64,000 nt of DNA, taken from the IMG/VR virus record IMGVR_UViG_3300025598_000030, positions 20,181 through 84,180 of that record; one strand, 5' to 3'. The translations under genes were made by a program, and so were the position numbers. Below, piece after piece: positions 44,108 to 64,000 of the stretch. This DNA is from a virus. The notes beneath the pieces were generated by a model. The model searched no databases, had not been told where the DNA came from, and worked only from the letters and a program-made list of their open reading frames with translations. Within the stretch, counting starts at the first letter, position 1. Every line of letters starts with the position of its first letter.

Positions 44108-44116
44108 GAGAATCAA

Positions 44117-44752: not shown

Positions 44753-44769
44753 CCTTAAAGGGAGAAGTG

Positions 44770-45867
44770 ATGTTGGACGCATTCAAACAATTAGTAGAAT
44801 CAGGCGTAATGACAGAAGAAACTAAATCAATGGTCGAATCTGCTTTTGCTGCTAAAATTCAAGAGAATCGCGATCAAATCACCGCTGAACTTCGTGAAGA
44901 ATTCGCACAAAAATATACACATGATAAAAGTGTTATGGTTGAAGCAATTGATCGGATGTTGAGCGAGAGATTGGCCGCCGAAATGGCTGAACTTGCTGAA
45001 GATAAGCAATCACTAGTTAATGCTCGTGTTGCTTACGAAGGCAAAATGAAGAGAGATGCTAAGGTATTAGAATCATTCATCATGCGTCAGCTAGGAAAAG
45101 AATTAGTTGAATTCCAAAGCGATCGTAAAAAAGTTGCTGAGAATTTTTCTAAGTTAGAACAGTTCATCGTACACGCATTGGCAAAAGAAATTACTGAGTT
45201 CTCTCAGGATAAACGTGATTTAGCTGCAACGAAAGTTAAGTTAATGAAGGAAGCTAAAGCTAAGTTCGATGATATTAAAGTTAAGTTTATTAAACGTAGT
45301 GCTCAAGTTGTTGAAAGTACAGTTAATAAGAAATTAAAATCCGAAATCAAGCAATTGAAGGAAGATATTTCAAACGCTCGAAACAATGACTTTGGTCGTC
45401 GTTTATTTGAAGCATTTGCAACAGAATATTCTACATCTTATCTAAATGAAAAATCTGAAACAAGTAAATTGTTGAAGATTATCCAGAAGAAAGATTTAGC
45501 ACTTGCTGAAGCAAAATCTGCTTTAAATGAAAAAGCAGCGTTGGTTGAATCTAAGGAACGTGAAATTCGCGTTGCAAAAGATTCTGCAGAACGTAAAGCT
45601 ATGTTAAGTGAAATGTTAGCTCCATTAGGTGCTGACAAGAGAGAATTAATGCGCAGCTTATTAGAAAGTGTACAAACTTCCAAATTATCTGCAGCATTTG
45701 ACAAATACCTACCCGCCGTAATGGAAGGTGCTGTAAAGAAAAAAGAAACTTCAAAAGAGACTTTAACTGAAAGCACAATTGTTACAGGCGATCGCGAAGT
45801 GAAGACTCAGCCCCAGGTAGGCTTAGATAATATCTTAGATATCCGCAAGTTAGCGGGTCTAAAATAA
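44770..45867 (+). CDS. 22: Prohead scaffold (core) protein gp22
   Basis: About 365 residues, helical and charged throughout, with long coiled-coil stretches (DRMLSERLAAEMAELAEDKQ, KLKSEIKQLKEDISNARNND) and the gp22-type C-terminus SKLSAAFDKYLPAVMEGAVK. It forms the internal core around which gp23 assembles and is later degraded by gp21. The ATG at 44770 is preferred over the GTG at 44767 because GGGAG is then 5 nt away. It lies 17 bp after gp21 and 21 bp before gp23. Confidence 0.93.
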   Translation: MLDAFKQLVESGVMTEETKSMVESAFAAKIQENRDQITAELREEFAQKYTHDKSVMVEAIDRMLSERLAAEMAELAEDKQSLVNARVAYEGKMKRDAKVLESFIMRQLGKELVEFQSDRKKVAENFSKLEQFIVHALAKEITEFSQDKRDLAATKVKLMKEAKAKFDDIKVKFIKRSAQVVESTVNKKLKSEIKQLKEDISNARNNDFGRRLFEAFATEYSTSYLNEKSETSKLLKIIQKKDLALAEAKSALNEKAALVESKEREIRVAKDSAERKAMLSEMLAPLGADKRELMRSLLESVQTSKLSAAFDKYLPAVMEGAVKKKETSKETLTESTIVTGDREVKTQPQVGLDNILDIRKLAGLK

Positions 45868-45888
45868 CTATAATTCAAGGAGACATAA

Positions 45889-47070: not shown

Positions 47071-47095
47071 TAGAATTACTTGTAAATTTACACAG

Positions 47096-47120
47096 AAAGC
47101 CCGCCCTGTGCGGGCTTTTT
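47096..47120 (+). terminator. Rho-independent terminator after gp23
   Basis: AGCCCGC-CCTGT-GCGGGCT followed by five T. It ends the head operon 25 bp after the gp23 stop. Confidence 0.9.
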
Positions 47121-47131
47121 GCTGATTACAA

Positions 47132-47139
47132 GATAAATA
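47132..47139 (+). promoter_or_regulatory. Candidate late promoter after the gp23 terminator
   Basis: GATAAATA, predicted TSS near 47145, giving a ~75-nt leader with a short hairpin (GCAGT-ACCC-ACTGC) before the SD AAGGAG. Confidence 0.5.
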
Positions 47140-47219
47140 TTATCAGTTCGCTCATAAAGAGAGTTTATGCAGTACCCACTGCGTAGATCCTAGAACGATC
47201 TTAATATAAGGAGAAACAA

Positions 47220-47888
47220 ATGGGACGTCCAATTAAAAAGAGATTTTTTGCAGGAACCGCTGTAGTTGCTGATACTGCAGGTATGGGAGTTGTTACGCCA
47301 AACGGTGTAACTATTGTTACTAGCGGAACGAATTATTCTTCTGCACCTACAGTTGTATTCAGCCAACCAGATATATTCGGCGGCACAGTTGCTACTGGTC
47401 ACGTTACTGTTAGCGGCGGAAACATTACTAGTTTTGTAGTAGATAATGGGGGATCCGGATATATGTCCGATCCTGCAATTGCATTAACAAACACTACAGG
47501 AACCGGCGCAACATTTACAGTTGCACTTGCTCCGATTAGTAATACAGGTAAAATTACGGTAACTGCTTACTTACCGTCACCTAAAGGATTAAGTTCTAAA
47601 ACTTCAAATATTCTAAAACAAGAATCAAGTCATCGTTATCTAGTACAAAATGCAGACGGCGACGGACAATGCAAGTTAGTTGCTTCGGGTAGTTTGACTG
47701 CAGGCCAAATGAATCTTGTTGCTACTGATAGTGCAGGTGGTACTTACTATGTAACGAAGTTGACTAGCCGTAAAGCTTATCTAACATCGATTAATGGTTC
47801 GCAATTTACTAACGGTGTTGCATCATGGTTGCTTGCTAGTGCAGGATCACCACAAGCTAATGTTAGTGTAACAATTCCTGTTTCTTAA
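47220..47888 (+). CDS. Capsid-associated structural protein, probable head decoration
   Basis: 222 residues starting MGRPIKKRFFAG, an opening I recall from small virion proteins downstream of gp23 in marine T4-type phages. Residues ~25-100 hold two copies of a beta unit (VTIVTSGTNYSSAPTVVFSQ and FVVDNGGSGYMSDPAIALTN), the second in a strong Gly-Ser-Gly-Tyr form also found in the 4432-residue baseplate protein. The rest is beta-rich with no known motif. Its own late promoter and terminator suggest a separately controlled, abundant product. A head decoration role is inferred from position. Confidence 0.65.
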   Translation: MGRPIKKRFFAGTAVVADTAGMGVVTPNGVTIVTSGTNYSSAPTVVFSQPDIFGGTVATGHVTVSGGNITSFVVDNGGSGYMSDPAIALTNTTGTGATFTVALAPISNTGKITVTAYLPSPKGLSSKTSNILKQESSHRYLVQNADGDGQCKLVASGSLTAGQMNLVATDSAGGTYYVTKLTSRKAYLTSINGSQFTNGVASWLLASAGSPQANVSVTIPVS

Positions 47889-47905
47889 TAGGTAATTGAT
47901 TAATT

Positions 47906-47937
47906 AAAAAATAGCTGCCTAGTGCAGCTATTTTTTT
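47906..47937 (+). terminator. Rho-independent terminator
   Basis: AAATAGCTGC-CTAGT-GCAGCTATTT with a T run to 47937. It is followed immediately by a late-promoter-like box. Confidence 0.9.
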
Positions 47938-47938
47938 G

Positions 47939-47946
47939 GGTAAATA
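47939..47946 (+). promoter_or_regulatory. Late-promoter-like box giving a predicted leaderless mRNA
   Basis: GGTAAATA, then AAGT, then ATG at 47951. The predicted +1 (47952) falls within the start codon, one base off the exact spacing. No SD is present. It directly abuts the terminator. Confidence 0.4.
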
Positions 47947-47950
47947 AAGT

Positions 47951-48460
47951 ATGCCTTTCTATTCAAGTAACATAATTCAATATGGCGAAGTTCCTCAACA
48001 TATCCCTTGGAATGATGATGGTTCGGGGTTTTATAATGCTAGATTTCCTGACGGAAAATTTGTAGATACTGTTTTACCATTGCTACATATAGCTAATTCA
48101 TTGGTTAATGATATTAAAAATAAAACATATTATATATCATTTTCTGGGTTCAATATCAACAATATTCCTACTACTATATCCGGTATTGAAGTAGAATTAT
48201 CTATGAATAGAAGTGGAAGAATTACCGATGAAACTATACAATTAACTTATAATAATCAATTAATTGGAGAGAATAAAGCAGACGGTGATTTAGGTATTGA
48301 TAAAATATATGGTGGTTCTAATGATTTATGGGGTACAAATTTAACACCTGCAATAGTTGCAGATCCGACATTCGGAGTAACTTTACGTTTTCAAAGTCAT
48401 CCCAGCTGGCCACATAAGTCTATTCCTTTAATAGAATACGTTTCAATAAGTGTCTATTAA
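47951..48460 (+). CDS. Virion-region protein, unknown
   Basis: 169 residues, beta-rich: MPFYSSNIIQYGEVPQHIPW, then TYYISFSGFNINNIPTTISG, IEVELSMNRSGRITDETIQL and a C-terminal VTLRFQSHPSWPHKSIPLIE. The layout (IEVELSMNRSGR...) resembles jelly-roll or carbohydrate-binding domains, but I cannot assign a family. It lies in a run of structural genes. There is no SD, and the ATG is 4 nt after a late-promoter-like box, so the mRNA may be leaderless. Confidence 0.6.
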   Translation: MPFYSSNIIQYGEVPQHIPWNDDGSGFYNARFPDGKFVDTVLPLLHIANSLVNDIKNKTYYISFSGFNINNIPTTISGIEVELSMNRSGRITDETIQLTYNNQLIGENKADGDLGIDKIYGGSNDLWGTNLTPAIVADPTFGVTLRFQSHPSWPHKSIPLIEYVSISVY

Positions 48461-48462
48461 AG

Positions 48463-48470
48463 AATAAATA
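48463..48470 (+). promoter_or_regulatory. Candidate late promoter
   Basis: AATAAATA, predicted TSS near 48476, 12-nt leader with AAGGAA before the ATG at 48488. Confidence 0.45.
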
Positions 48471-48487
48471 CAGTAAAGGAAAAAGTA

Positions 48488-49498
48488 ATGACCACTAATG
48501 TCTTGAAATTACCCGGCGATTATCTTATAAACACTCCAAGTGGTAATATTACTCTCGACGCCACTGGGGTGAGTTCTGGTACTGCAGTGACCGGTACTGT
48601 AAGAATCATTGGTAATTTAGATATTATCGGCAATCAGACATTAATTGAAAGTACAAGTAGTTTAATTAAAGATAATATTATCATTTTAAATGCAGAAGAA
48701 ACTAATGCATATGTTACTTTAGGTAATAGTGGTATTGTAATTGATAGAGGTAGTTATGCAACATTAACAAACGCCGCTACATTATTATATGTAGATTCGA
48801 TCGGTATTAGTCCTGTTACCTGGACAGATAGTTCCGGAACAGTATATCAAGGATTATTTGATTTTCGTTCAGCAGGAACCGGCACTGCAATACAAGCAGC
48901 CGCGTTAAGAACTAACGGACCAAATGGCACAATTAACTTTTTAGGTGTTGAAAATCCATATGGAATGCTTAATGTTAAAGGTACGATCAATTATGCATCT
49001 AGAGTTTTAGATAACGATGACATTCCTAACAAATATTATGTAGATAATAGGATTTACACCGGTACTAATTTTGCTCAGAAATTACAGGTAGGAAATACTT
49101 TTGTACAACTTGGTGATAATTCAATACCACCTAATCAACAATACTTTTCATCAATTAATACAATGTTTGTCGGACTCGGTTCTACTAGTAACGTTGTCTT
49201 TAAATTAATTGGAACCAGTGCAGTATTTTCCGGAATCAGTTTAAACAATAATGTTATACAAGCTAATACCGGATCTGATTTGATTTTACAAGCAGGCGGA
49301 AACGGATCTATTGATCTTAATTCTGCTTTAAGGCTACAAGATCAAACTTCAATACCTCTTCCATTAGTTAATCAAACAGTTTTATATGCGTCGACAACAA
49401 CCGGCGGCGGCGGCACTGGGATATATTTTACAAATACAAATAAATCCGACGAACTAGTTAGCCGCAGAAAAGCAATAATTTATAGCATCATATTTTAA
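48488..49498 (+). CDS. Fibre-like virion structural protein
   Basis: 336 residues. TVRIIGNLDIIGNQTLIEST followed by SSLIKDNIIILNAEET is a module shared by fibre-type proteins of marine T4-type phages and resembles one in the fibre gene at 2812. Further on is NDDIPNKYYVDNRI, a typical fibre motif. The C-terminus DELVSRRKAIIYSIIF has the form of conserved tail ends in this group. It is probably part of a head or tail appendage. It has its own late promoter and a good SD (AAAGGA). Confidence 0.68.
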   Translation: MTTNVLKLPGDYLINTPSGNITLDATGVSSGTAVTGTVRIIGNLDIIGNQTLIESTSSLIKDNIIILNAEETNAYVTLGNSGIVIDRGSYATLTNAATLLYVDSIGISPVTWTDSSGTVYQGLFDFRSAGTGTAIQAAALRTNGPNGTINFLGVENPYGMLNVKGTINYASRVLDNDDIPNKYYVDNRIYTGTNFAQKLQVGNTFVQLGDNSIPPNQQYFSSINTMFVGLGSTSNVVFKLIGTSAVFSGISLNNNVIQANTGSDLILQAGGNGSIDLNSALRLQDQTSIPLPLVNQTVLYASTTTGGGGTGIYFTNTNKSDELVSRRKAIIYSIIF

Positions 49499-49508
49499 GG
49501 TATAAAAA

Positions 49509-49826
49509 ATGTCAATAAAAAATACATTAGTTCATTCTACGACAACACAAATATTTTCCGCAGTTAGTGCAGAACAAGCTGTAACTACTATGTTTTTCTG
49601 CAATACTTCGTTAACATCTAGTACAAATGTTAATGTATTCTTAGTTCCTATTGGCGGAGCTGCCGGTAATTCAAATTTAGTTATAAATGCTCTTCCAATA
49701 CCAGCAACTGAAACATTTGTATTCGATGCTGAAAAAGTTATACTCGAAAGTGGAGAAAGCATCTGGGCACAATCAACTGTAGATAATATTTTAATTGCAA
49801 CTGTAAGCTCAGTACAAACATCATGA
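49509..49826 (+). CDS. Small beta-rich virion protein
   Basis: 105 residues: TTTQIFSAVSAEQAVTTMFF, VNVFLVPIGGAAGNSNLVIN, then a C-terminal VILESGESIWAQSTVDNILI. This organisation fits a single beta-sandwich domain like small virion proteins in this phage group; no named family. AAGG precedes the ATG by ~10 nt, and its stop overlaps the next ATG by 4 bp. Confidence 0.6.
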   Translation: MSIKNTLVHSTTTQIFSAVSAEQAVTTMFFCNTSLTSSTNVNVFLVPIGGAAGNSNLVINALPIPATETFVFDAEKVILESGESIWAQSTVDNILIATVSSVQTS

Positions 49827-50629
49827 GATATATTAAAAAACTTGCATTATATTCTAAAAGTCCTATGGATGATAAATTTTCTGTTCTTCAGGACAATCGA
49901 ATTGTAACAACTAGTAAAACTACTTTAGAAGTTCCTACCGGCGCAAAAACTGATAGACCTTCCACTATTGTCGACGGTACTGTAAGATATAATACTACCT
50001 TAAATGAATTTGAAGTATATAATAGTATGGGAGGATTGAATACAAACCCACTTAATACTAATTGGGAAATTATCAGAACTATTAGACAGGCTACAATTAC
50101 TCCTCAAAATTTAGGATATGGCAATTATAATGATATCTATTTCGGTCCTCTAGCATATGATGTCGATATAACAAAACCACAAAATGTTTTAGTATTTGTT
50201 GATAATGTTTATCAAGTGCCGACTACAAATTATACTTTGGTTAAAAATCCTACAGCAGCGATTGCAACAGCAACTATAGCTGTAAGCAATACCTTTACTA
50301 TCTATCTTAATACCTTGACAAATATTGATGTAGGTGAATCGGGAATATGGAGAACAATTTCAGGCACTGGGATACAATTAGGTACTACGATCACTTCAAT
50401 TACTACCAACCTCAGTGTACCAAATAATGGCTATCCTGTAGGTATAAGTTTATCCGCGACATTATCTCAAGGAACACAAGTCACAGTTCAATATGGTTCG
50501 TATCCTGTATCCGGTGCAGCTACTTACATTAAATTTACAGGTCCGGTTCCGGCTAAACCGGTCTTTAGTTTATTAGGATTCGATGGCTATTTCCCAGCTG
50601 GGCCAAATCGTAACCTTTTTGAATCCTAA
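49823..50629 (+). CDS. Virion structural protein with fibre-type beta modules
   Basis: 268 residues. RPSTIVDGTVRYNTTLNEFE is a common fibre-shaft motif. NVLVFVDNVYQVPTTNYTLV matches the repeated -V-VN-VYQ-G-DY-type unit also used many times in the 4432-residue protein. The C-terminus is FSLLGFDGYFPAGPNRNLFE. It overlaps the upstream gene by 4 bp. Role probably structural; no enzyme motif. Confidence 0.62.
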   Translation: MRYIKKLALYSKSPMDDKFSVLQDNRIVTTSKTTLEVPTGAKTDRPSTIVDGTVRYNTTLNEFEVYNSMGGLNTNPLNTNWEIIRTIRQATITPQNLGYGNYNDIYFGPLAYDVDITKPQNVLVFVDNVYQVPTTNYTLVKNPTAAIATATIAVSNTFTIYLNTLTNIDVGESGIWRTISGTGIQLGTTITSITTNLSVPNNGYPVGISLSATLSQGTQVTVQYGSYPVSGAATYIKFTGPVPAKPVFSLLGFDGYFPAGPNRNLFES

Positions 50630-50651
50630 CAACCCCATTTAATAAAACAAT

Positions 50652-50755
50652 AATAAATATAACGATGTCGAGAATGTTCCCGACAGGAACAAACTGTGGC
50701 AAACCCGCAATGTAAGGTGGTTACCCGTGAAAATCGGTGATGACAAGGAGCCACA
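50652..50755 (+). promoter_or_regulatory. Late promoter and structured leader of the 3846-codon gene
   Basis: AATAAATA at 50652-50659 predicts +1 at 50665. The ~91-nt leader can form either TGTCG (50666-50670) with CGACA (50681-50685), or TGTTCC (50675-50680) with GGAACA (50686-50691); the two are mutually exclusive. TGTGGC (50695-50700) pairs with GCCACA (50750-50755), which ends right before the ATG and takes the last G of the SD AAGGAG. This could switch translation of the giant gene on or off. A 16-codon frame (MSRMFPTGTNCGKPAM) begins at the predicted +1 and ends at 50715. Confidence 0.45.
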
Positions 50756-53700
50756 ATGGCTATTGGTCGTATTTCAGGTCCGTTATTATCTTCTAATCTA
50801 TTACGCGATGGTGTAAACCTAGCCTTTGAAACTAATTTATTATATCTTGACGTCAATAATGGACGTATTGGTATACGTAACAGTAATCCGGCATACGAAT
50901 TAGATGTCAATGGAACTATCAATGCTAATAATTTAAAAGTTTTATATACTGGGCCGAATACAGGTGTAGCTCAATTAGGTAATCTTGTAATACAAAATGG
51001 AGTTATCACCACTAATGTTGGGCCAATCACTATACAACCTAGCGGTAATGAATCTGTAAATATTGTCGGCGATACTATTGTTACAGGAAACTTGCATGCT
51101 ACCGGTAATATTACTGCAGATGGTAATATTGTTTTAGGAAATAATACTGTTACAGATACAGTTATATTTGAATCGGAAATTGGTTCAAATATCGTTCCGA
51201 CAATTAACGACGCATTTAATTTAGGTAGTCCTGAAAGAAATTGGCTCAATGCATATGTTGATACGTTAGTTACTAATCAGGTTACTAGCACTAATACATT
51301 AAGCATCGGCTCGACTGCCGGTTTAGTACAAATTAATGCTGAATTAAGAGCATTAGGATCAAATCCGATTGGTACTGCACCGGTAATCACTAACGTTCTC
51401 CATGTTACAGTAGACGGTAATGATACCAATGATGGGCGAGCAGCTGATCCTAGTCGAGCATGTCGCACGGTTAGCGGAGCTGTCCGTAGTCCATATTATC
51501 GTCCGGGAACATTAATTAAAGTTTATAGCGGACATTATTTAGAAAATAATCCTATATTATTACAGCCAAATACTGCTGTAGTAGGAGATGATTTAAGAAC
51601 TACTAGTTTAGAACCGATTAATAAAACACAAGATCTTTTCCATGTTCAAAGTGGATGCTATCTTGCACAGATGCAGTTTTTTAATGGCAGAAGCGGATTA
51701 TTACCTGGTCCATATGTTAATGGAACTAATCGAGGTGCTTATTGTACTGCGTTCCCACCGCAAGTTAACGGAGCTAAGATCGACCTTTATCAATCGCCAT
51801 ATGTACAGAATTGCACTAATCAAAGCGGTCCTTGGTTAGTTGATGGAACAATGTTTGTTCCGAACCAAACAGTACAAGTTCCTCAAGGTGTAGGCATTGC
51901 TACATTTGAAGCAAATACAACAACACTAACAGTACAATTAACAAACGGATCGATCGTTCCGGGATTAAACGTTATTAGTGGACCACAAGATCCGGGATTT
52001 TTTAGTGCTAGAACCTTAATATTAGCTAATATTACATTTATTCAAGAACAAGTGGTTGCATTCGTTAATCAACAAGTTGCTGCTGCTACTCCGGGGTCTG
52101 CTTTTTACAATTTTACATATAACCAAGCTAAGTGTTTCAGAGATGTTGGATTAATTGTACAAAATATTTCCTATGATGTTACTTTTGGTGGTAATGAAAA
52201 AGCAGTTGAAGCAGGATTAGCCTATTGGAATGGCGTTATTAATCTTATCGAAGGTCAACAAATACAAACTACTGCAGCGATTGAATACATCGATACATTA
52301 TGTCAGTCTATTATTGTTAACCAGACAGCTCCTGTGATTACGACAGGTACCTCTCAAATAATTAATACTTCGATGATCGGTGGAGGAATCGCTAGCCAAG
52401 AAATTACCAATGCTGTTAATATCATTACTACGATTATTAATGAAGGGCCGAGTGCAGCTCCGACTAGCTTTAATAGTTGCGGACCCGAAGCTCCTTTAGT
52501 TAGCGCTGAATTATTATTACAAGCTAATAGAAATTTTCTACAAAACGAAGTAGTAGCATATGTAAATGCAACTTATCCGACTTTTGTTTATAAACAAGAT
52601 TATTGTTTTAGAGATACTGGATTAATTGTTGATGCAGTAACACAAGACATTATCCTCGGCGGGAACACCAAGAGCATTGAATGCGGTTTGAGCTATTATA
52701 CCGGAGCAAAGGATGATAGTAGCGTAGCCGAAACTGTTATTATCAATAACTTTAACTTAATTAAAAATATAATTCAAAATGGTCCAAGTGTTGCTCCTCC
52801 TTCTATTAGCGGACCGAATTTAGGAGGAGGATTCTCAAATGCACAAAATATTTTACTTAAGAACTTATTATTTGTTCAATCAGAAGTAAGTGCATATGTT
52901 CGTAGCCTGTTTAATAATAATTTTAGATTAACGCAGATACAACAAAATAAATGTTACCGAGACATTGGTACAATATTAACTGCAATCGCTAATGATGCTG
53001 CAGCCGGCGGTAATGTTAATACATTACAATCCGCATTAGCATATTACAATAACGGAGTAATTATTCTCCCTGGCAATCAGCCTGCAGAAACATTAAATGC
53101 ATTAGATTATATGCAATATATTGCGGTTAACATTATTAAAAATAACAAGTTAACCAATCTTTATCAGAATTATATATCTCAAACATTCAATCCGATTGCA
53201 GGTACTGCGATTCAAATCAATAATATCAATTCTAATATTGATAGAATTACTACAATTATTAATAATGGTCCTAACACATTAATTAACGGATTACCGATTA
53301 CACCTAGCCCGATCGGATTAAAAGCTTTAGGAGATGCATATACACAAACTGCAGCTACTTTACTAAATGCCAATCGATACTTTGTTCAATCCGAAGTGGT
53401 AGCCTATATTGACAATTATATCTATAGTAACTCTTCATATTATCAAAATTATAGTAGAACGAAATGCTTAAGAGATACCGGGTTAATTGTTGATGCTCTC
53501 GTGTTAGATCTGTTATTTGGCGGAACTAGTCAGAGCGATTTTGCTGGATTACAATATTGGAATCAAAATGGATACGTTGGGTTAATACCTTCGGAGTTAA
53601 CAACAACAACCGCTGCTATAAATTTTATTAGTAGTTTATCACAACAGATTGTACAAAATAGTACGAACGGTACAAGATATACTGCTACATATTATAATGG

Positions 53701-56700
53701 AGCATCGCCTAGTACACAAAATATTAGTTTAACTGCTGCAACCACTAATGAAGCTACATTAATTGCTAATGACTTTTCTGTAATTACAAATATTCTAAAC
53801 AATGGAACCACTGGAGTGACAGATCTAATCATTCCTAATGGCATTAATCCTGCAACAGGTAACATACTTAATGCAGTAAATTTATTGCAAGCAAATAAAG
53901 TTTATATACAAGAACAGACAGTTGCATTTGTAGAAAATACAAAAACTGCAGGGTTTACATATAGTCAGGCTAAGTGTTATCGAGATGCAGGGTATATGGT
54001 TGATAGCGTATGCTTTGACTTATTATATGGCGGTAATAAACAAGCTGTTCAAAGTGGCGTTTATTATTATTCATTCTCAACCATAGCCGGAGCTATTGCC
54101 ACTAACGAAGTAGCTCAAACTACATTAGCATATAATTATATTAAAACATTGGTCTCCTCTATTGTTAGGGGTAAACTTATAACAAATACATATCAGACCG
54201 CTGTTATGCAGGTACTTCCCGGCGAGACTGGATCATCATTAGAAGTTGAACAGATAAATTCTAATATCGATTTAATTACAGATATTATTACAGTAGGCCC
54301 TAGTATTGCTCCTCCTCCAACTCCGATTAGTAATCAATTAACCTATAACTATAATGCTATTAATGCATTTAACTTATTAACCTCAAATAGAGATTTCTTA
54401 GCAGCAGAGTTGACTGGATGGGTTGATGATACTTTTAGCGTAGGATTTAATTATAATGCTGCGAATTGTTATAGAGATACCGGGTTAATTATTGATAGTA
54501 TTGCATTTGATATTTTACAAAAAGATAATAGTCAAGCAATCTTTGCTGGATTACAGTATTGGAATCAAAAAGGATATACAGGAGCAATTAGTAAAGAATT
54601 AACAACAACTACCGCCGCAATTAATTATGCAAGTTGGTTAGCACAGAAAGTTATTACTAATACAACTGTTACTTCTTTACAAACAGCAACTACACAGATC
54701 TTTAATTTTGCAGCAAGCGGATCTACTACTGCAAGCGGTATAGTTTCTTCATTATTCTCGACAATTACGAATATTTTAACTAACGGAACTGTCGGAGTTA
54801 CTAATATTATTACTCCGAATGGTACTGCAACATCCAATACATTAATTCATAATGCTTATAACCTATTGCAGGCAAATAAAACATTTATCGAAAATGAAGT
54901 AGTTGCTTATGTTGATTTAGGTTTATCAAATTATTATTATGATAAAACAAAATGTTCACGAGATACCGGATTAATAATCGACGCTATTGCATTAGATTTA
55001 TTATATGGTGGAACAAGTCAAAGTGATTTTGCCGGATTGCAGTATTGGAATCAAGCAGGATATACTGGGCAAATTACAGTCGAATTAAATCAGACAGTAG
55101 ATGCAATTAACTTTGCTAGCTCTCTTGCACAACAAGTAGTACAAAATATCACTAACGGCACAAGATATAATCCTATATATTATCCATCGGGCCCGACTGC
55201 TCAGCAGACAGGAACTGCAGCAACTTCAGTAGAAGCTGAAATAATTGCAAATGATTTTTCTGTAATTACAAATATTTTAACAAACGGAACAGCCGGTGTA
55301 ACTGATCTTATTATACCTAATGGATATACTCCAGTTAGTACTGCTACTACAAATGCATACAATCTATTACAAAATAATAGAACATTTATTCAAGAACAAA
55401 CAGTTGCATATGTTGAGGCAACTAAACCCTCGTGGTTCGTTTATAGCACAGCAACATGTTACCGTGATGTTGGATATATAGTCGATAGTATTAGTTTTGA
55501 CTTATTATATGGCGGTAATAAACAAGCTGTTCAAAGTGGCGTTTATTATTATTCATTCTCTCCGACAGCAAGTGCAATTGCTCCGACAGAAAAAAATCAA
55601 ATAACCGCAGCATATAATTATATACAAACACTGACGAATTATATTGTACAAGGTATTGCTGTGCCGAATCCGTATCAAACTGCAATATCTCAAAGTGGAG
55701 TCGGCGGATCGGCCGGTACAAGTGTTCAAGTTTCTGCGCTTGATAATAGTATTAATAGAATTACAACTATTATCAATAATGGACCTACAGTCACTATAGG
55801 CGGATCGCTTATAACACCGACACCGATATCATTAACACAGAGTTCGGTATCTGCTGTGAAAAATGCTGTTTCTCAATTAGAATCTAATAGAGATTTCATA
55901 AGAGCTGAAGTTATTGCTTATCTTGATAATTTTATATATAGTCAAGCAAAACCAGGTTTTGTTTATGATCAAACTAAGTGTGCAAGAGATGTAGGATTAA
56001 TTGTAGATTCTCTAGCTGAAGATTTATTATTCGGCGGCAGCAGTCAAAGCAATTTCTCCGGATTGCAATACTGGGCACAATCTGGATATACAGGTTCAAT
56101 TGCAACTGAATTAACTACAACTACTGCTGCTATTTCTTATATTAGAGATTTAGCAATTAAAGTTATCACTAATGATACTACCGGAATTAGATATCAAACA
56201 TCTACGGTTCAAACTACAGTTTCCGGGATTGTTGTAACAAATAGTGAAAAACAAAAGATCTATGATGAGTTTAACTTAATAGTCGATATTATTAATAATG
56301 GAACAGCTGGAGTTACTGATTTAATTATACCTAACAGTTTAACTTCTAGTACAAATGCATTTGTTGCCGGAGCTTATACTTTATTAGAAGCTAATAAAGC
56401 ATATCTACAATCGGAAGCTGTTGCATTTGTAGAAGCTACTAAAACATATGGATATGTATATAATTCAAGCAAATGCTATCGTGATATCGGCTATATGGTC
56501 GATAGTGTAAGTTTTGATTTATTATATAACGGCAATAGACAAGCAGTACATAGCGGAGTTTATTATTATGGTTTTAGTAATATAACCGCTATACCTAATG
56601 AACAACCTCAAGTAACTGCAGCATATAACTTTATTCAAAATATTAGTTCATATATCATAACAGGACAACGTGTACCGACTCAATATCAATCAAATGTTGC

Positions 56701-59700
56701 ACAAGTTCTAAGTCCTAATGTTGGAACAACTGCACAAGTAGTTGCAGTTTCTAATAATATTAGTTTAATTACTAGTATTATCAATACAGGAACAAGCGCA
56801 GCATTAGCACCTACTCCAATTTCTGTTATTCCTAGTGTAGTACCTGCTGTAATTAATGCAGCTAATTTATTGTCTGCTAATCGCGCATTTATTCAAGCAG
56901 AAACAGTAGCTTATATTAACAAAATATATCCTGTAGGATTTAATTATAATAGAGATACTTGCAGACGAGATGTTGGATATATTATCGATAGCGTGAGTTT
57001 TGATTTGTTGCATAACGGTAATAGACAGAGTATACAAAGTGGTGTCTATTATTATAATTATGATAGCAATAATAGTGTTATTACCTATGAATTAGCACAA
57101 GTTACCGCTGCTTATAATAGAATTAAACAAGTCGCACGAGGTGTTATAACAAATAATACCGTAACGACTACTATCGGAAATACATCCACTCAGATCTTTA
57201 TATCAACAGCAACTCATGCTTCAAGTTCGCAAATAGCATATATTGAAAATGAAGTTGATATCATCACAGACATTATTAATAATGGTCCTAGCCCGTATTA
57301 TCCAAAGAAACCGATTAATTTATCATCGAGTAATGTACAAGGGGATATTGACGCCTACAACTTATTGCTAGCGAACCGTACATTCATACAAAATGAATTA
57401 ATTGCTTATATTAACTATTGGTTTGCAAAACCATTTAATTACGATAGAAACAAATGTGAAAGAGACACCGGATTAATAGTCGATGCAATAGCTCAAGATT
57501 TGTTATTCGGTGGAACCAGTCAAAGCGATTTTGCAGCTATTCAATATTGGAATCAAAATGGTTATACTGGAAACATCACAGTTGAATCGGCACAAACAAT
57601 CGAAGCTATTACATATCTTAAAAATTTAGCAAAAGAAATAGTACAAAATTCTACTGGGCCGACAACAAGATATTCCACGACTGCAACGCAAACCATCTAC
57701 AACGGTTCTCCAGGAACTATTAATGATGCTGCCGCAATAGAAACAGATTTTAATTATATAATTAATATCTTAACTAATGGTACTACAGGTGTAACTGATG
57801 AAATAGTACCAAATAGTTTAAGTGCTAACGGAACCACCGCTAATGCAGTATCATTATTAAAAGCTAATAGAACCTATTTGCAACAACAAGTAGTAGCGCA
57901 TGTTAATGCAACATATTCTAATACTACATTTAATAATTCAACTCCATTACAAAGCAAATGTAAAAGAGATACTGGTTTAATTGTTGATGCATTGGCTCAA
58001 GATTTATATTTCCCCGGAACTAGTGGAAACAGTCAGATCGTATTTTCAGCATTACAATATTGGGCACAAGGCGGTAATTTAAATATTCAAGGATCAGAAC
58101 TTGTAGCCACCGAATATGCAATTAATCAATTAAGTATAGCAGCAGCCTCAGTTATTACAACTACGTTAGAAAAAAACTTTGTAACAAATGAATTCAATTT
58201 AATTATCGGGTTATTAAACGGAACAATCAATCCGTCTACTATTACAGATTCTATTGTACCAAATTCAATAACTGCAGGTACAGGAGTGGTACTTGCTGCA
58301 TATAATGCATTGCAATCGAATAGAGATACCATTATTTCGACTGTAGCTAGCGAGTTACAAACCACATATCCGTATGTTTGGGGAACAATTGATCAAGCAA
58401 TTTGTCGTAGAGACATGGGTTTCATTATTGATAGTATCAGTTATGATTTATTATATAATGCAGATCCAACTTATACATCTCCTTCTAATAGACAAGCTAT
58501 TCAAAGCGGTATCTATTATTTAGGGTTCTCGAATACAACTAATATTCCGAATGAACTACCACAAACTGTTGCTGCATATACATATTTAAAGAAAGTAGTC
58601 AGCTATGTTATTTCTGCAAAATCATTAAATGGTTATGCTTCTGGACAAGTTACTAATTTACCAGCTGGAACAAATGCGGATATTTCTGCAGTTGTTAATA
58701 ATATCAATTTATTATTAAATGTTGTCCAAAATGGGCCGGCAGCGGCAGGAGGGATATACACTCCGATTGGGTTAACACCGAATTCTGTATCATATAATGC
58801 ATTCTTGCTCTTGCATAGTAATAGAAGCTTTATACAAAATGAAATAGTCAATTATATCAAAAATTGGTCATACACAACTAGCACATGTCTTAGAGATGCT
58901 GGATATATAATCGATAGTGTAACATTTGATTTAACATATGGCGGTAATAGACAAGCTATACAAAGTGGAGTTTATTATTATACAAATACCGGTACAAATA
59001 GTGTATTACCATCTAATGAAATACCACAAACTACGGCTGCATACAATTATATTCAAACATTAGCAAATTATGTTATACAAGGGATTCAATTACCGAATCC
59101 ATATCAAACAGCAGTCGCTCAGGTTATTAGCGGATCAGTCGGTACTACCAATGAAGTAACTGCTATTGATTCTAATATTAATAGAATCACAACTATAATT
59201 AATAATGGTCCTGGAGTATTAATCGGTGGAAATCCTGTTACCCCAACCCCGATAGGGTTAACCCCGAGCTCTACAGCAGCAGTTGTTAATGCTGCTAATT
59301 TATTAGAAGCCAATCGTTCATTTATACAAGCAGAAGTAACTGCTTATATCGATGCAACATATTCGAGTGTGTTTATCTATGATAAGATCAAATGTGAAAG
59401 AGACACGAAATTAATTGTTGATAGCGTAGCATTAGATTTAATTTATGGTGGAAACTCACAAAGTGCTTTTGCAGGACTACAATATTGGTCACAAGGTGAT
59501 TATACAGGTTCAATTGGTAGAGAAGTAACTACAACAACTAATGCTATTGAATATGCACAATCTCTAGTAACAGCAACTATTGCTAGCTTCCCATCTGCTA
59601 TAACTAGTGTTAATGCAAATTTCAATGAAATTATAACTATTATTAATTCTGGTACCAATGGAATAACAGATATTATTATTCCTAATGGATTACCATCGAC

Positions 59701-62296
59701 AAATACATCAACGGTAGCAGCATACACTGCAATTCAAGCTGCTAAAACAACAATTCAACAACAGACAGTCAATTGGGTAACTGCAAATAATCCAGGGTTT
59801 GTCTATAATACATCAACATGCTATCGTGATGTTGGATATATTATTGATTGTGTTAGCTTTGATTTATTAAATGGGGGTAATCGACAAAGTATTCAAGCAG
59901 GTGCATATTATTATGCATCGAGTTATACTACGACTAATATTCCTAATGAAATTCCTCAGGTAGTAGGGGCCTTTAATCAACTTAAATATCTAATTAATCT
60001 GGTTATTCAAAGTCAACCTCTTCCGACGTCACATCAAAAGAATTATAATCAAGTCATTATTCCTTCATATGCAGGAGTACAGAGTGCTATCTACGGTGAA
60101 GAAACTATAACCTCTGATGCAATAGCATATCTCAATAATATTAGTCAAAATATAATAAGTAACACACCTGTTCCGGTTGTAAGATCTACAGCAACACAAG
60201 TGTTTATTAATACTTTAGAAGGGGGAATACATGCAGCCTCGGCTATTAATAGATGTTATACAATTATATCTGATATAATAAAAAATGGTCCGGATGCTGC
60301 ACCATTGCCATTCACTGGATCGGGATTATTTGCAACTACTGGAGTAAGTTCGGATGACGTAAGAAACAGTCCTACAATTATTTCTATTACTTCTCAGACA
60401 AATAATGTTTATACGATCACATTATCCGGTCCGACTGTAGGCGATGCACAAAATGGAACTTTATATTTCGGCAATACTTTAGTTTTCCCTGCTACAGATG
60501 CACAAGTTGAGGAATTAAGTTTAAAATATACCGGAAATACCAGTACATGGGATAGTCGTAAAGTTGATCAGATCGGCGCGATGGGCGGTACATTGATCGA
60601 CGGTGCTGTAATTAGCGATCGAAGCCCAATTCAATCGTATGTATTCGACGCATTTACTCAAATTAATCAAGGCGGAAGAGGTATACACATCACCAATAAT
60701 GGTTATGCGCAGCTTGTATCGGTGTTTACAATCTTCTGTAGCGTTGGTGTACAAACTGATAACGGAGGAATCGCATCTATTGTTAATAGTAATGCTAACT
60801 TCGGTAATATATGCTTATTATCTAATGGGTTTGGCAAATTAGAATTTAGTGGAACTATATATAATCCTCCGAATCCGACATATCAGGTTAATGGTGAATA
60901 TTATCCATTAGGATATTATCCACAAAATGGACAAGTTGAAATCTATATACCGGATACAGCATTTCGACCCCATATTGCATTAATTATGGAAGTAGAACCT
61001 CCATTAACTACTGTCGATTATCAAGGAAATATAGTTCCTTATATTAATAATCAAGGGTATCCGGGGTTCTTAAATGCTACTCCGAGTCTCGCATCATTAA
61101 CTACCGGTAGTCTTACTATATCCGGTATCGATACTACAGGTATTGCTGTGGGAAATACGGTATATATTCAAGACCAATTCGGTAATACAGGAACTACTGT
61201 TAATGGAGTATTTTCTCCATATATTATACCTGGAACCATTGTAACAGATGTTAGTTATCAAACTATTACATTAAACTATGGATTAGGTAGTGGCGGATCT
61301 GATCCTACAAATACTGTACAATTAGTTAATAGTAACTACTTTAATTTATATTTCTGCGGAAATGCATATTATACTGTATTGTCAAGCGATGTAAGTGACG
61401 CATTTGCAACTAAAATTAATCCAGATGGAAGTACAAGTCAAAAATATGAATTAGGTAGTAATATATTAAGCGCTGCTAATACAGCACAGCAAAACAGCCA
61501 AATAGGATATGAAATTGATATATTATTTGAATTACAAGCTATTTTATGTTCAAATGGTAACATTTTAACAAATGCACATGTTAACGGCGAATCTATTAGT
61601 TTTATATATAATCGACTTAATTTAATTATAGGCATAATTGATGCTGCTAATATAACATTAGCAACAAATTATGCTGTTCCCACAAAAGTAGGAACACCGC
61701 CGGCGGGAGCAAGTGTAGCAATATCGACAATAAATGCCCAAACGGAATACTTAGTATCTTACTTAATTTCATTCATCGAAGGGGATCCTTATTTCTTTAC
61801 TAGCTTTAATGTAGAGAAATGTAAGAGAGATATTCGACTTACATTAAGGCAATTAACATATGATCTCGAAACTGGCGGAAATTATTATAGTTATTATTCA
61901 GGACTAAGTTACTGGTATCGTTCAGGAACTCATCATATTGTGTCCTTAGAAGAAAATGTAACTGATGCATCTCTCTTCCCAGATGGCGCTATTGTAAACT
62001 TTTATCAAAGAAGCTATCAATCTGCTTCTGGATATACGTTTGAGTATGTAGGTGCTGGTGTAACATACAGTGCATTGCCACAGCGTGGAGTTAAAGATCC
62101 TGTTCAAGGACAGGAAGTAGTTCAATTAAATAATGGTAAGGTCTTCTATACTTCAACCGACCAGAATGGTGATTTTAGAATTGGCCCTTCACTTGTTATT
62201 AGCCAGGCCACTGGTGTATTAAGTGGTAGAACGTTTACAAAGAGCTTGTTTGCTAATATGACACCGTTCATTTTAGCAATTGAAGGCGGAGGTTAA
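50756..62296 (+). CDS. Giant 3846-residue virion protein with 18 internal repeats
   Basis: One 11.5-kb open frame. The N-terminus has fibre modules (NNGRIGIRNSNPAYELDVNG, FNLGSPERNWLNAYVDTLVT). Residues ~215-330 are a right-handed beta-helix-type segment (VTVDGNDTNDGRAADPSRAC). Residues ~430-3050 contain 17 copies of a ~165-residue unit centred on C-x-R-D-x-G-x-I-x-D (for example CYRDVGYIVDSISFDLLYGG), each preceded by a helix of the FIQNE-VAY type. The beta-helix resumes at ~3280 (DAFTQINQGGRGIHITNNGY, AQLVSVFTIFCSVGVQTDNG). Copy 18 is near 3690. The end (FYTSTDQNGDFRIGPSLVIS) is the standard C-terminus of marine T4-type fibre proteins. It looks like a long appendage lengthened by repeat expansion. 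The SD AAGGAG may be partly paired in the leader. Confidence 0.82.
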   Translation: MAIGRISGPLLSSNLLRDGVNLAFETNLLYLDVNNGRIGIRNSNPAYELDVNGTINANNLKVLYTGPNTGVAQLGNLVIQNGVITTNVGPITIQPSGNESVNIVGDTIVTGNLHATGNITADGNIVLGNNTVTDTVIFESEIGSNIVPTINDAFNLGSPERNWLNAYVDTLVTNQVTSTNTLSIGSTAGLVQINAELRALGSNPIGTAPVITNVLHVTVDGNDTNDGRAADPSRACRTVSGAVRSPYYRPGTLIKVYSGHYLENNPILLQPNTAVVGDDLRTTSLEPINKTQDLFHVQSGCYLAQMQFFNGRSGLLPGPYVNGTNRGAYCTAFPPQVNGAKIDLYQSPYVQNCTNQSGPWLVDGTMFVPNQTVQVPQGVGIATFEANTTTLTVQLTNGSIVPGLNVISGPQDPGFFSARTLILANITFIQEQVVAFVNQQVAAATPGSAFYNFTYNQAKCFRDVGLIVQNISYDVTFGGNEKAVEAGLAYWNGVINLIEGQQIQTTAAIEYIDTLCQSIIVNQTAPVITTGTSQIINTSMIGGGIASQEITNAVNIITTIINEGPSAAPTSFNSCGPEAPLVSAELLLQANRNFLQNEVVAYVNATYPTFVYKQDYCFRDTGLIVDAVTQDIILGGNTKSIECGLSYYTGAKDDSSVAETVIINNFNLIKNIIQNGPSVAPPSISGPNLGGGFSNAQNILLKNLLFVQSEVSAYVRSLFNNNFRLTQIQQNKCYRDIGTILTAIANDAAAGGNVNTLQSALAYYNNGVIILPGNQPAETLNALDYMQYIAVNIIKNNKLTNLYQNYISQTFNPIAGTAIQINNINSNIDRITTIINNGPNTLINGLPITPSPIGLKALGDAYTQTAATLLNANRYFVQSEVVAYIDNYIYSNSSYYQNYSRTKCLRDTGLIVDALVLDLLFGGTSQSDFAGLQYWNQNGYVGLIPSELTTTTAAINFISSLSQQIVQNSTNGTRYTATYYNGASPSTQNISLTAATTNEATLIANDFSVITNILNNGTTGVTDLIIPNGINPATGNILNAVNLLQANKVYIQEQTVAFVENTKTAGFTYSQAKCYRDAGYMVDSVCFDLLYGGNKQAVQSGVYYYSFSTIAGAIATNEVAQTTLAYNYIKTLVSSIVRGKLITNTYQTAVMQVLPGETGSSLEVEQINSNIDLITDIITVGPSIAPPPTPISNQLTYNYNAINAFNLLTSNRDFLAAELTGWVDDTFSVGFNYNAANCYRDTGLIIDSIAFDILQKDNSQAIFAGLQYWNQKGYTGAISKELTTTTAAINYASWLAQKVITNTTVTSLQTATTQIFNFAASGSTTASGIVSSLFSTITNILTNGTVGVTNIITPNGTATSNTLIHNAYNLLQANKTFIENEVVAYVDLGLSNYYYDKTKCSRDTGLIIDAIALDLLYGGTSQSDFAGLQYWNQAGYTGQITVELNQTVDAINFASSLAQQVVQNITNGTRYNPIYYPSGPTAQQTGTAATSVEAEIIANDFSVITNILTNGTAGVTDLIIPNGYTPVSTATTNAYNLLQNNRTFIQEQTVAYVEATKPSWFVYSTATCYRDVGYIVDSISFDLLYGGNKQAVQSGVYYYSFSPTASAIAPTEKNQITAAYNYIQTLTNYIVQGIAVPNPYQTAISQSGVGGSAGTSVQVSALDNSINRITTIINNGPTVTIGGSLITPTPISLTQSSVSAVKNAVSQLESNRDFIRAEVIAYLDNFIYSQAKPGFVYDQTKCARDVGLIVDSLAEDLLFGGSSQSNFSGLQYWAQSGYTGSIATELTTTTAAISYIRDLAIKVITNDTTGIRYQTSTVQTTVSGIVVTNSEKQKIYDEFNLIVDIINNGTAGVTDLIIPNSLTSSTNAFVAGAYTLLEANKAYLQSEAVAFVEATKTYGYVYNSSKCYRDIGYMVDSVSFDLLYNGNRQAVHSGVYYYGFSNITAIPNEQPQVTAAYNFIQNISSYIITGQRVPTQYQSNVAQVLSPNVGTTAQVVAVSNNISLITSIINTGTSAALAPTPISVIPSVVPAVINAANLLSANRAFIQAETVAYINKIYPVGFNYNRDTCRRDVGYIIDSVSFDLLHNGNRQSIQSGVYYYNYDSNNSVITYELAQVTAAYNRIKQVARGVITNNTVTTTIGNTSTQIFISTATHASSSQIAYIENEVDIITDIINNGPSPYYPKKPINLSSSNVQGDIDAYNLLLANRTFIQNELIAYINYWFAKPFNYDRNKCERDTGLIVDAIAQDLLFGGTSQSDFAAIQYWNQNGYTGNITVESAQTIEAITYLKNLAKEIVQNSTGPTTRYSTTATQTIYNGSPGTINDAAAIETDFNYIINILTNGTTGVTDEIVPNSLSANGTTANAVSLLKANRTYLQQQVVAHVNATYSNTTFNNSTPLQSKCKRDTGLIVDALAQDLYFPGTSGNSQIVFSALQYWAQGGNLNIQGSELVATEYAINQLSIAAASVITTTLEKNFVTNEFNLIIGLLNGTINPSTITDSIVPNSITAGTGVVLAAYNALQSNRDTIISTVASELQTTYPYVWGTIDQAICRRDMGFIIDSISYDLLYNADPTYTSPSNRQAIQSGIYYLGFSNTTNIPNELPQTVAAYTYLKKVVSYVISAKSLNGYASGQVTNLPAGTNADISAVVNNINLLLNVVQNGPAAAGGIYTPIGLTPNSVSYNAFLLLHSNRSFIQNEIVNYIKNWSYTTSTCLRDAGYIIDSVTFDLTYGGNRQAIQSGVYYYTNTGTNSVLPSNEIPQTTAAYNYIQTLANYVIQGIQLPNPYQTAVAQVISGSVGTTNEVTAIDSNINRITTIINNGPGVLIGGNPVTPTPIGLTPSSTAAVVNAANLLEANRSFIQAEVTAYIDATYSSVFIYDKIKCERDTKLIVDSVALDLIYGGNSQSAFAGLQYWSQGDYTGSIGREVTTTTNAIEYAQSLVTATIASFPSAITSVNANFNEIITIINSGTNGITDIIIPNGLPSTNTSTVAAYTAIQAAKTTIQQQTVNWVTANNPGFVYNTSTCYRDVGYIIDCVSFDLLNGGNRQSIQAGAYYYASSYTTTNIPNEIPQVVGAFNQLKYLINLVIQSQPLPTSHQKNYNQVIIPSYAGVQSAIYGEETITSDAIAYLNNISQNIISNTPVPVVRSTATQVFINTLEGGIHAASAINRCYTIISDIIKNGPDAAPLPFTGSGLFATTGVSSDDVRNSPTIISITSQTNNVYTITLSGPTVGDAQNGTLYFGNTLVFPATDAQVEELSLKYTGNTSTWDSRKVDQIGAMGGTLIDGAVISDRSPIQSYVFDAFTQINQGGRGIHITNNGYAQLVSVFTIFCSVGVQTDNGGIASIVNSNANFGNICLLSNGFGKLEFSGTIYNPPNPTYQVNGEYYPLGYYPQNGQVEIYIPDTAFRPHIALIMEVEPPLTTVDYQGNIVPYINNQGYPGFLNATPSLASLTTGSLTISGIDTTGIAVGNTVYIQDQFGNTGTTVNGVFSPYIIPGTIVTDVSYQTITLNYGLGSGGSDPTNTVQLVNSNYFNLYFCGNAYYTVLSSDVSDAFATKINPDGSTSQKYELGSNILSAANTAQQNSQIGYEIDILFELQAILCSNGNILTNAHVNGESISFIYNRLNLIIGIIDAANITLATNYAVPTKVGTPPAGASVAISTINAQTEYLVSYLISFIEGDPYFFTSFNVEKCKRDIRLTLRQLTYDLETGGNYYSYYSGLSYWYRSGTHHIVSLEENVTDASLFPDGAIVNFYQRSYQSASGYTFEYVGAGVTYSALPQRGVKDPVQGQEVVQLNNGKVFYTSTDQNGDFRIGPSLVISQATGVLSGRTFTKSLFANMTPFILAIEGGG
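52030..60350 (+). repeat. Array of 17 degenerate ~490-bp coding repeats
   Basis: C-x-R-D motifs fall near 52132, 52603, 52950, 53463, 53972, 54465, 54953, 55457, 55978, 56470, 56960, 57450, 57957, 58405, 58887, 59391 and 59818; most spacings are 480-520 bp. Two subtypes recur: one with GGTSQSDFAGLQYWNQ, one with GGNKQAVQSGVYYYSF. An isolated copy lies near 61818. Confidence 0.85.
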
Positions 62297-62736: not shown

Positions 62737-64000
62737 ATGCCAGGTCTTATTAGCGGTCGTACACTTGTTAATCCTACAGGTACGTTAAGCCCGACACGTT
62801 ATCAATTTTTAAACTTAGCCAATGCGCAGCCTGCATTGGGTCCTTCTCCTACCACAGGTACTGGGTATACATTAATATCTTATGCCACCGGTACTGTATT
62901 TTCTAGCAGTTTAGGTAATTTAAACTTTAATTATGGAGTTATATCTCCCAATACTCCTAGTTTATCTACTATTACGTTACAAGTAAGTACAATAACTGGA
63001 AATATAAGTTTAGTTACTCAATTAGTTAGTATTACCGGTAATTTAACTTTTACTAATACTGTTTCTAGTTTTATTAATCTAGGTGGTAGAGAAAGTGTAA
63101 GAATTCCCAATTATTACGAAGGAGTCACTCCTCCTACAAATACAACGTTTTGGGCAGGTGATCATTGGTATGAACCAACTAATCAAGTATTATATGAATA
63201 TGTATTAGATGATATCGGCGAAAGATGGGTAGATATTACAGGACCTTTCTTTAGTACTGATGTAGCACAATTTGGGTATGTTGGTAGTATCGGCGGAATT
63301 GGATACTCTGGAAGTCGAGGAGATAAAGGTGATGCAGGAGGATATACCGGAAGTCAAGGCTTATTAGGGTATTATGGTAGCCAAGGAATATCCGGATATC
63401 TCGGGTCAATCGGGTATATAGGAAGTGCCGGTGTCGGGTATATCGGATCAAAAGGATATACTGGAAGTAGCGGATTAGGATATACCGGTTCACTCGGATA
63501 CGTCGGCAGTGCCGGCTCGGGATATACCGGTTCACTCGGATTACAAGGGTACACCGGTTCACTCGGATACGTCGGCAGTGCCGGTTCGGGATATACCGGG
63601 TCAGTGGGCCTTTTAGGTTATGTCGGTAGCAGTGGGTTAGGGTATTCTGGATCTTTTGGGTCGTTGGGATATTTTGGATCGAAAGGGTATACCGGATCAT
63701 TCGGATTACAAGGATATACTGGTTCACTTGGGTATATCGGTAGTGCTGGTTCGGGATATACAGGATCTTTTGGATATACTGGTAGTAGCGGATTAGGGTA
63801 TAACGGATCAGTTGGTTACACTGGTTCACAAGGACTAGGTAGTCCTGGTTATTTCGGTAGTCAGGGTAATATCGGATATACTGGTTCACTTGGGTATATC
63901 GGTAGTGCTGGTTCGGGATATACAGGATCTTTTGGATATACTGGTAGTAGCGGATTAGGGTATAACGGATCAGTTGGTTACACTGGTTCACAAGGACTAG
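62737..64000 (+). CDS. Collagen-like GYTGS-repeat fibre protein (3' end outside window)
   Basis: Open from the ATG at 62737 to the right edge (421 codons, no stop). Residues ~1-180 are a head domain (MPGLISGRTLVNPTGTLSPT, then WAGDHWYEPTNQVLYEYVLD, which resembles a fibre trimerisation/attachment unit). From ~residue 185 the protein is a Gly-rich repeat of GYTGS, GYVGSAGS and GLQGYTGS units, a collagen-like triple-helix candidate seen in phage fibres. The array is still running at the edge. GGAG precedes the ATG by ~8 nt. A 246-codon antisense frame here comes from the repeat composition. Confidence 0.75.
   Translation, partial: MPGLISGRTLVNPTGTLSPTRYQFLNLANAQPALGPSPTTGTGYTLISYATGTVFSSSLGNLNFNYGVISPNTPSLSTITLQVSTITGNISLVTQLVSITGNLTFTNTVSSFINLGGRESVRIPNYYEGVTPPTNTTFWAGDHWYEPTNQVLYEYVLDDIGERWVDITGPFFSTDVAQFGYVGSIGGIGYSGSRGDKGDAGGYTGSQGLLGYYGSQGISGYLGSIGYIGSAGVGYIGSKGYTGSSGLGYTGSLGYVGSAGSGYTGSLGLQGYTGSLGYVGSAGSGYTGSVGLLGYVGSSGLGYSGSFGSLGYFGSKGYTGSFGLQGYTGSLGYIGSAGSGYTGSFGYTGSSGLGYNGSVGYTGSQGLGSPGYFGSQGNIGYTGSLGYIGSAGSGYTGSFGYTGSSGLGYNGSVGYTGSQGL
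63712..64000 (+). repeat. 127-bp exact direct repeat in the GYTGS array
   Basis: Positions 63712-63838 and 63874-64000 appear identical over 127 bp, offset by 162 bp; the second copy may continue past the window. Shorter near-copies fill 63480-63600. Confidence 0.8.

Follow-up and report, generated by a model that had tools for sequence, protein, structure and literature searches.

A giant tail-fibre-type protein of a T4-like phage with phycobiliprotein-type repeat units and a putative bilin-attachment motif

A single gene of a T4-like phage encodes a tail/fibre-type structural protein in which 18 copies of a CxRD-containing unit are found, 17 of them in tandem. The descent of these units from the phycobiliprotein/bilin-binding-globin family is well supported and, in our judgement, very probable. 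As an explanation of the whole we propose, tentatively and with slightly less than even confidence, that phycobiliprotein-type units are carried on the phage fibre with putative bilins bound at the CxRD motifs.

The gene and its repeat array

The window analysed here is a stretch of 64,000 nucleotides corresponding to bases 20181-84180 of an 84-kb IMG/VR virus fragment (IMGVR_UViG_3300025598_000030). It carries genes for portal, major head and gp25/gp5/gp6-type baseplate proteins, a late sigma factor and an SbcCD-like nuclease, and because these T4-type genes surround the ORF we assign the fragment to a T4-like myovirus. The ORF, of 3846 amino acids and with an ATG start, matches PHROGs of short tail fibre, tail fibre and virion structural proteins (E to 3e-156), and this homology identifies the product as a tail/fibre-type structural protein. 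Just downstream lies a collagen-like ORF with short Gly-rich repeats of GYTGS type (62737-64000, open at the window end). Elsewhere in the window, a 4432-aa virion structural protein (phrog_10938; 6023-19321, minus strand), in which no CxRD unit was found, adjoins the baseplate genes, and short tandem repeats (43391-43490 and 43589-43721) coding Asp/Gly/Met/Glu-rich stretches are present in an ORF (43037-44107) situated between the genes for portal and major head protein. The parts of the gene are as follows, with the CxRD position of each unit given in amino acids and its support in brackets.

50756..62296, +, whole gene, tail/fibre-type structural protein, 3846 aa (ORF; PHROGs)
50756..51946, +, N-terminal region, beta-helix-type, aa 1-397 (flank conserved N-terminal to arrays in relatives; fold by inspection)
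51947..52417, +, unit 1, aa 460 (HMM i-E 3.4e-46; best stretch for Pfam PF00502)
52418..52762, +, unit 2, short, aa 617 (HMM i-E 1.7e-39)
52766..53254, +, unit 3, aa 733 (HMM i-E 2e-45)
53279..53767, +, unit 4, aa 904 (HMM i-E 4.5e-52)
53789..54277, +, unit 5, aa 1074 (HMM i-E 6.4e-59)
54281..54766, +, unit 6, aa 1238 (HMM i-E 2.5e-55)
54767..55255, +, unit 7, aa 1400, first of three units modelled with AlphaFold (HMM i-E 1.7e-54; pLDDT 90.5 for units 7-9)
55271..55759, +, unit 8, aa 1568, also modelled alone (HMM i-E 1.8e-60; pLDDT 89.9)
55793..56281, +, unit 9, aa 1742 (HMM i-E 5.1e-58)
56288..56773, +, unit 10, aa 1907 (HMM i-E 3.9e-58)
56774..57262, +, unit 11, aa 2069 (HMM i-E 3.6e-57)
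57269..57757, +, unit 12, aa 2234 (HMM i-E 4.1e-59)
57773..58216, +, unit 13, aa 2402 (HMM i-E 1.5e-42)
58217..58699, +, unit 14, aa 2550 (HMM i-E 3.7e-40)
58700..59188, +, unit 15, aa 2711 (HMM i-E 1.1e-53)
59207..59632, +, unit 16, aa 2880 (HMM i-E 1.5e-51)
59633..60121, +, unit 17, aa 3022, last of the tandem array (HMM i-E 8e-50)
60074..60295, +, C-terminal half-unit lacking CxRD, aa ~3107-3180 (domain score 28 bits; 14 bits in a second profile search)
60503..60865, +, C-terminal beta-helix-type region, core aa 3250-3370 (flank conserved behind the first array in relatives; fold by inspection)
61634..62122, +, unit 18, isolated, aa 3689 (HMM i-E 3.8e-34)

Along the tandem array (aa 460 to 3022) the CxRD motifs are spaced by 116-174 residues, with a mean of 160. 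A profile HMM recovered 18/18 units with i-E values from 3.8e-34 to 1.8e-60, which is far beyond chance. All 18 units share Ala29, Cys63, Arg65, Asp66, Asp77 and Tyr93 (unit numbering) as their six invariant residues, and two subtypes, CxRDxGL...FAGLQYW and CYRDxGY...QSGVYYY, are intermixed along the array. After unit 17 comes the extra half-unit, and the array is flanked by beta-helix-type sequence (aa ~200-398 before and ~3250-3370 after), a fold that was assigned by inspection rather than from a structure model. A preliminary description of this DNA, made from the letters alone, had given the same gene coordinates, 17 tandem units plus an isolated one, an intermixture of two subtypes, an invariant Cys and the interruption of a beta-helix-type domain by the array; the ORF calls, the motif positions and the HMM search agree with it on these points.

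An assembly artefact can be ruled out: within the protein no unit is more than 66% identical to its best paralogue, an independent 328-kb contig has all 18 units without a change in order, and bases 43279-54010 recur at 100% identity in a second record. Further, each unit best-matches the same-numbered unit of the 328-kb contig, at 72-88% identity, and we can therefore also rule out recent amplification or concerted evolution of the array.

Kinship of the unit with phycobiliproteins

The kinship was probed against the PDB (177,635 distinct sequences) with three queries. A single unit matched phycobiliproteins in 34 of 35 cases (best E 0.0066), the other match being a thiol:disulphide interchange protein; a profile of the 18 units of the window gave phycobiliproteins in 60/60 among the matches listed (best E 5.5e-5), and one built from 109 diverse units of phages did so in 38/38 (best E 7.6e-5). 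The best phycobiliprotein match was phycocyanin alpha. In Pfam, the whole protein reaches 48.9 bits with the Phycobilisome family (PF00502), whose cut-off is 22.2; 21 of the 109 single units match this family, which is the only one among 24,736 Pfam families to match more than one of them. Alignment with hhalign against phycobiliproteins gave 92.5% and 85.8% over helices A-G, versus 0.1% for the control; of the five phycobiliprotein sequences used in it, two were compared with the PDB, where phycocyanin alpha proved to be exact and allophycocyanin beta near-exact. In all alignments the CxRD of the units falls on the bilin-attachment triad, Cys84-x-Arg86-Asp87.

Structure prediction points in the same direction. 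AlphaFold modelled three consecutive units (7-9) with a mean pLDDT of 90.5 and a pTM of 0.73, and unit 8 alone with values of 89.9 and 0.63, which bears out the tandem folded units of the preliminary description. The predicted helices of each unit match A, B, E, F, G and H in number and order, and the Cys lies near the start of E. When the three-unit model was compared with the PDB using Foldseek, the matches with probability >0.9 were all phycobiliproteins or a bacterial fluorescent protein, which we take to be phycobiliprotein-derived; their TM to target reached 0.51, with 3.7-6.8 A across 106-126 columns. Long alignments of this model with membrane proteins, having a probability of about 0.1 or less and ~30 A rmsd, were dismissed. 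With the model of one unit, 50/50 among the matches listed were phycobiliprotein-type (E at least 0.06, TM about 0.2-0.4). Across the whole single-unit model the rmsd is 17 A, which suggests that helix H packs elsewhere in the prediction, perhaps swapped between neighbours.

The structural match is thus modest, the best phycobiliprotein Foldseek E values being 0.06-0.3 and TM 0.3-0.5; sequence identity between units and phycobiliproteins is about 15-20%, and single stretches of the protein stay just under the PF00502 cut-off (best 21.2 bits). Such figures could be expected of an unrelated helical bundle that had converged on a CxRD-like spacing and on the helix order of phycobiliproteins, but we consider this improbable, because exclusively phycobiliprotein matches are credited to the three PDB queries, to Pfam and to the fold search (34/35 in the case of the single-unit query), and because the alignment spans helix A to G and so extends beyond the motif alone.

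Units and phycobiliproteins have in common the helix order A-B-E-F-G(-H), which for the units is a predicted one, a CxRD (in many cases KCxRD) close to where helix E starts and a length of ~160 residues. The N-terminal X-Y helical hairpin, through which phycobiliproteins make their alpha-beta dimer, has no counterpart in the phage units; homology begins at about residue 35 of phycocyanin, in helix A, and a linker precedes it. Because of this absence the unit has to be seen as a relative, and not as a standard phycobiliprotein. It also differs in the invariant Asp that follows the Cys at a distance of 14 residues and is not found in phycobiliproteins, in being arranged in tandem within one giant phage polypeptide, and in that its bilin is putative. 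The preliminary description, which also suggested that the units may stack into a long stalk, had the tandem folded units right and overlooked the kinship with phycobiliproteins and the nature of CxRD as a chromophore-attachment motif.

Distribution and probable hosts

Single units used as tblastn queries against INPHARED gave matches only in cyanophages. A profile search found 10 matched stretches in S-PM2, 13 in S-RSM4, 4 in P-HM2, 4 in DSL-LC03, 1 in S-T4 and 0 in Mosig. The units of the five cyanophage isolates are mostly CxRD and are spread over one to three proteins per genome, their carriers being giant tail-fibre and gp7-type proteins. These giants of T4-like cyanophages (PHROGs 4527, 5342 and 701; S-PM2p091, P-HM2 gp7, S-RSM4_151) carry diverged copies of the same unit as the protein described here, but in lower number (each of the five isolate genomes has 1-13), and have been annotated just as structural, tail fibre or baseplate proteins. 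In S-PM2 (NC_006820, 165928-177267; locus L146), 16 annotated tRNA genes lie inside a 3780-aa CDS with units, so that something looks odd about the gene call or else about those of the tRNAs; CpeT is found ~1.5 kb upstream of this CDS.

In IMG/VR, units were detected at more than 570 places per scan. Copy number was also counted in relatives, a check that the preliminary description had put forward, and proved to vary: between the two beta-helix halves there are 0 to 17 units, a second array of 0-16 can be found behind, and the numbers in all run from 1 to 23. The statement in that description that related marine proteins have far fewer copies holds for the five cyanophage isolates, where the copies are also weaker, but does not extend to uncultured relatives, since 20-23 copies are present in some of these. 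Among 84,980 prokaryote genomes scanned, units were present on 3 contigs, all of them in the MAG Rhodobacteraceae bacterium Water_Bin34 (GTDB). The unit branch is therefore nearly confined to phages. Water_Bin34 is itself a reference bacterial MAG, filed under Rhodobacteraceae, that holds phage-like contigs with giant unit proteins.

The photosystem gene psbA was absent from 49/49 records tested, and many unit-bearing phages therefore probably do not infect marine cyanobacteria. For the phage described here, a cyanobacterial host is unsupported in view of the same 49 records and of CsgF and CsgG in its nearest relative; these curli secretion genes suggest another Gram-negative host. Curli (type VIII secretion) sets are unusual for a phage. 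They were observed directly downstream of a hemO-pcyX cassette at locus L154 (6788-11598; relative G030, 158000-170000) and at locus L156 (7757-11582), in the latter with one extra ORF between cassette and set, and consist of CsgF and CsgG, recognized by Pfam, followed by curlin-like repeat proteins and a FecR-domain protein.

The CxRD site, its possible pigment and its meaning

To characterize the motif beyond one protein, 145 loci (from IMG/VR scans plus own-record loci) were reduced to 92 distinct ORFs and these to 459 units with less than 65% identity. Among these non-redundant units the Cys is conserved in 96%, the Arg in 98% and the Asp in 99%, and 438 of the 459 have all three together with both fold residues intact. 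The Cys is missing from 18 units, which come from 13 loci. Counted without regard to shared ancestry among units, the Arg is kept in 10/18 of these versus 99.5% of the others (p 4e-11) and the Asp in 13/18 versus 100% (p 5e-8), while the next most affected position gives p 0.002. The fold residues stay: Asp75 in 18/18, Asn34 in 18/18 and Tyr91 in 17/18. From this joint loss of Arg and Asp with the Cys, the CxRD triad can be seen to behave as one functional site that is able to die while the fold persists.

The beta-helix of the fibre protein is interrupted by 17 tandem domains, with one more near the C-terminus, that very probably belong to the phycobiliprotein family, and we propose that the array would act as a run of rigid helical modules lengthening the fibre. 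It is quite possible, in our opinion, that the CxRD near the start of helix E, at the position where a linear tetrapyrrole is bound in phycobiliproteins, is still a working chromophore site, in which case up to 18 bilins would be covalently held by each fibre chain. Uptake of bilin by CXRD bilin-binding globins is known to occur without a lyase (PMC10151467). The bilin, phycoerythrobilin or a precursor of it, would be supplied by the phage's own heme oxygenase and PcyX in the closest relative, and elsewhere by the host. What the pigment might be used for is a matter of speculation: protection against light or oxidative damage, stiffening of the fibre by a buried cofactor, or presentation of a decoy ligand to a host tetrapyrrole receptor, an idea that has been proposed for iron-carrying fibres (PMC11705849).

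No bilin gene was found in the 84-kb record of the window, which was searched for heme oxygenase and bilin reductase. Its closest relative, the 328-kb contig (unit protein 78% identical, gp23 94% identical), carries hsp20, clpS, heme oxygenase and bilin reductase consecutively, and the reductase is PcyX-type (PDB 5owg, PcyX, E 2e-48, versus 6e-13 for PcyA). Adjacent heme oxygenase and bilin reductase genes are also present in G008 and G010, two further large records with units, and a bilin cassette occurs in 3/6 unit-selected records of at least 200 kb. Phage records selected by their reductase contain units in 5/5 cases at 200 kb or above and in 3/6 cases between 100 and 200 kb. As a background, gp23-selected, reductase-free records of at least 100 kb contain units in 4/8 cases; because of this background the excess of units in reductase-bearing records (8/11 versus 4/8), although positive in direction, is not significant. 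The Water_Bin34 MAG (loci L351-L353 and L356-L358) has, in addition to its three unit-bearing contigs, three heme oxygenase-bilin reductase cassettes on other contigs; these adjoin uvsX and gp32 genes, which PHROGs confirmed for one cassette and which in the other two are alike in sequence. Other observations count against a pigment: in a 331-kb relative with 17 units (G001) neither bilin reductase nor heme oxygenase was found, and the SAR11 phage Mosig has both enzymes while the search found no unit in it.

It is also a serious possibility that units of this same ancestry carry no pigment. They would then be apo globin-type blocks that extend the fibre, and CxRD would serve in packing, through an Arg-Asp salt bridge and a buried Cys, or in inter-chain contacts. 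Units do occur in phages where no bilin genes are detectable (G001 and most of the gp23-selected records) and in phages lacking psbA, whose hosts may lack bilins; the presence of 0 to 17 copies at one insertion point is what would be expected of a length module, and the cyanophage units include a CxDD subclass, devoid of the Arg, which also counts against the pigment reading. On the other hand, Arg and Asp are lost with the Cys while those fold residues that vary least stay, a pattern that a ligand site fits better than packing does, and the retention of a lone Cys at 96% in a unit of 160 residues needs a reason. A use of the Cys for covalent protein chemistry, be it an internal thioester or isopeptide-type bond or inter-chain disulphides locking the fibre or gripping the host, would suit a single conserved Cys that is repeated in a fibre protein and followed by a conserved Gln (column 138, 83% of the 459 units), but is very improbable: the Gln is kept in 15/18 Cys-less units (p 0.62) and is thus uncoupled from the Cys, which rules out a thioester, 352 of the 441 CxRD units have exactly one Cys, which rules out an intra-unit disulphide, and such chemistry predicts loss of neither Arg nor Asp.

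The most far-reaching form of the bilin proposal, that T4-like aquatic phages make pigmented virions by loading bilins from their own heme oxygenase and PcyX-type reductase onto up to ~20 fibre domains, seems to us rather unlikely. Parts of it have parallels in known systems. Bilin biosynthesis-associated globins (BBAGs; PMC10151467) are CXRD bilin-binding globins from genomes, outside cyanobacteria as well, in which genes for heme oxygenase and bilin reductase are present too; they are separate globins clustered with the enzymes, whereas the phage unit is a repeat inside a virion-type protein, with the enzymes far off in the genome. Iron-carrying tail fibres of the HxH type (Trojan or Ferrojan horse; PMC11705849) resemble the proposed fibre in presenting a host-relevant cofactor in repeated sites, but they hold a metal through His in an unrelated fold, and the phage units would hold a putative bilin through Cys. 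In the open-access literature we came upon no paper that connects virion proteins with domains of phycobiliprotein type. The phycobiliprotein/bilin-binding-globin family is known, and it is the setting in a virion protein that is new, provisionally so because the search was limited to open-access sources.

The purpose of bilin-making genes in phages has been debated for two decades. Where the host has no phycobilisome, it has been called unclear or enigmatic in a review and in a 2024 study (PMC2984593; PMC11480375); the latter study describes the co-occurrence of phage hemO and FDBR as 'still enigmatic' and considers host BBAGs as one possible acceptor, and no phage protein. Reports on phage hemO-pcyX/pcyA/pebS cassettes (PMC11480375, PMC2984593), of which the closest relative carries a heme oxygenase-PcyX-type example, have proposed that the product is meant for host antennae, phytochrome, a host BBAG or iron supply, and name no phage-encoded acceptor. 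A candidate phage-encoded acceptor of phycobiliprotein type in the virion makes the purpose of these genes testable, concretely and cheaply. If the pigmented-virion reading is true, bilins made by phages would have their missing destination in the virus itself, even where the host lacks phycobilisomes, and a pigmented virion would be categorically new. Even without pigment, a branch of the phycobiliprotein family would be serving as a virion building block, widespread in phages, with a bearing on the origin of phycobiliproteins and with tandem scaffolds for pigment arrays on offer.
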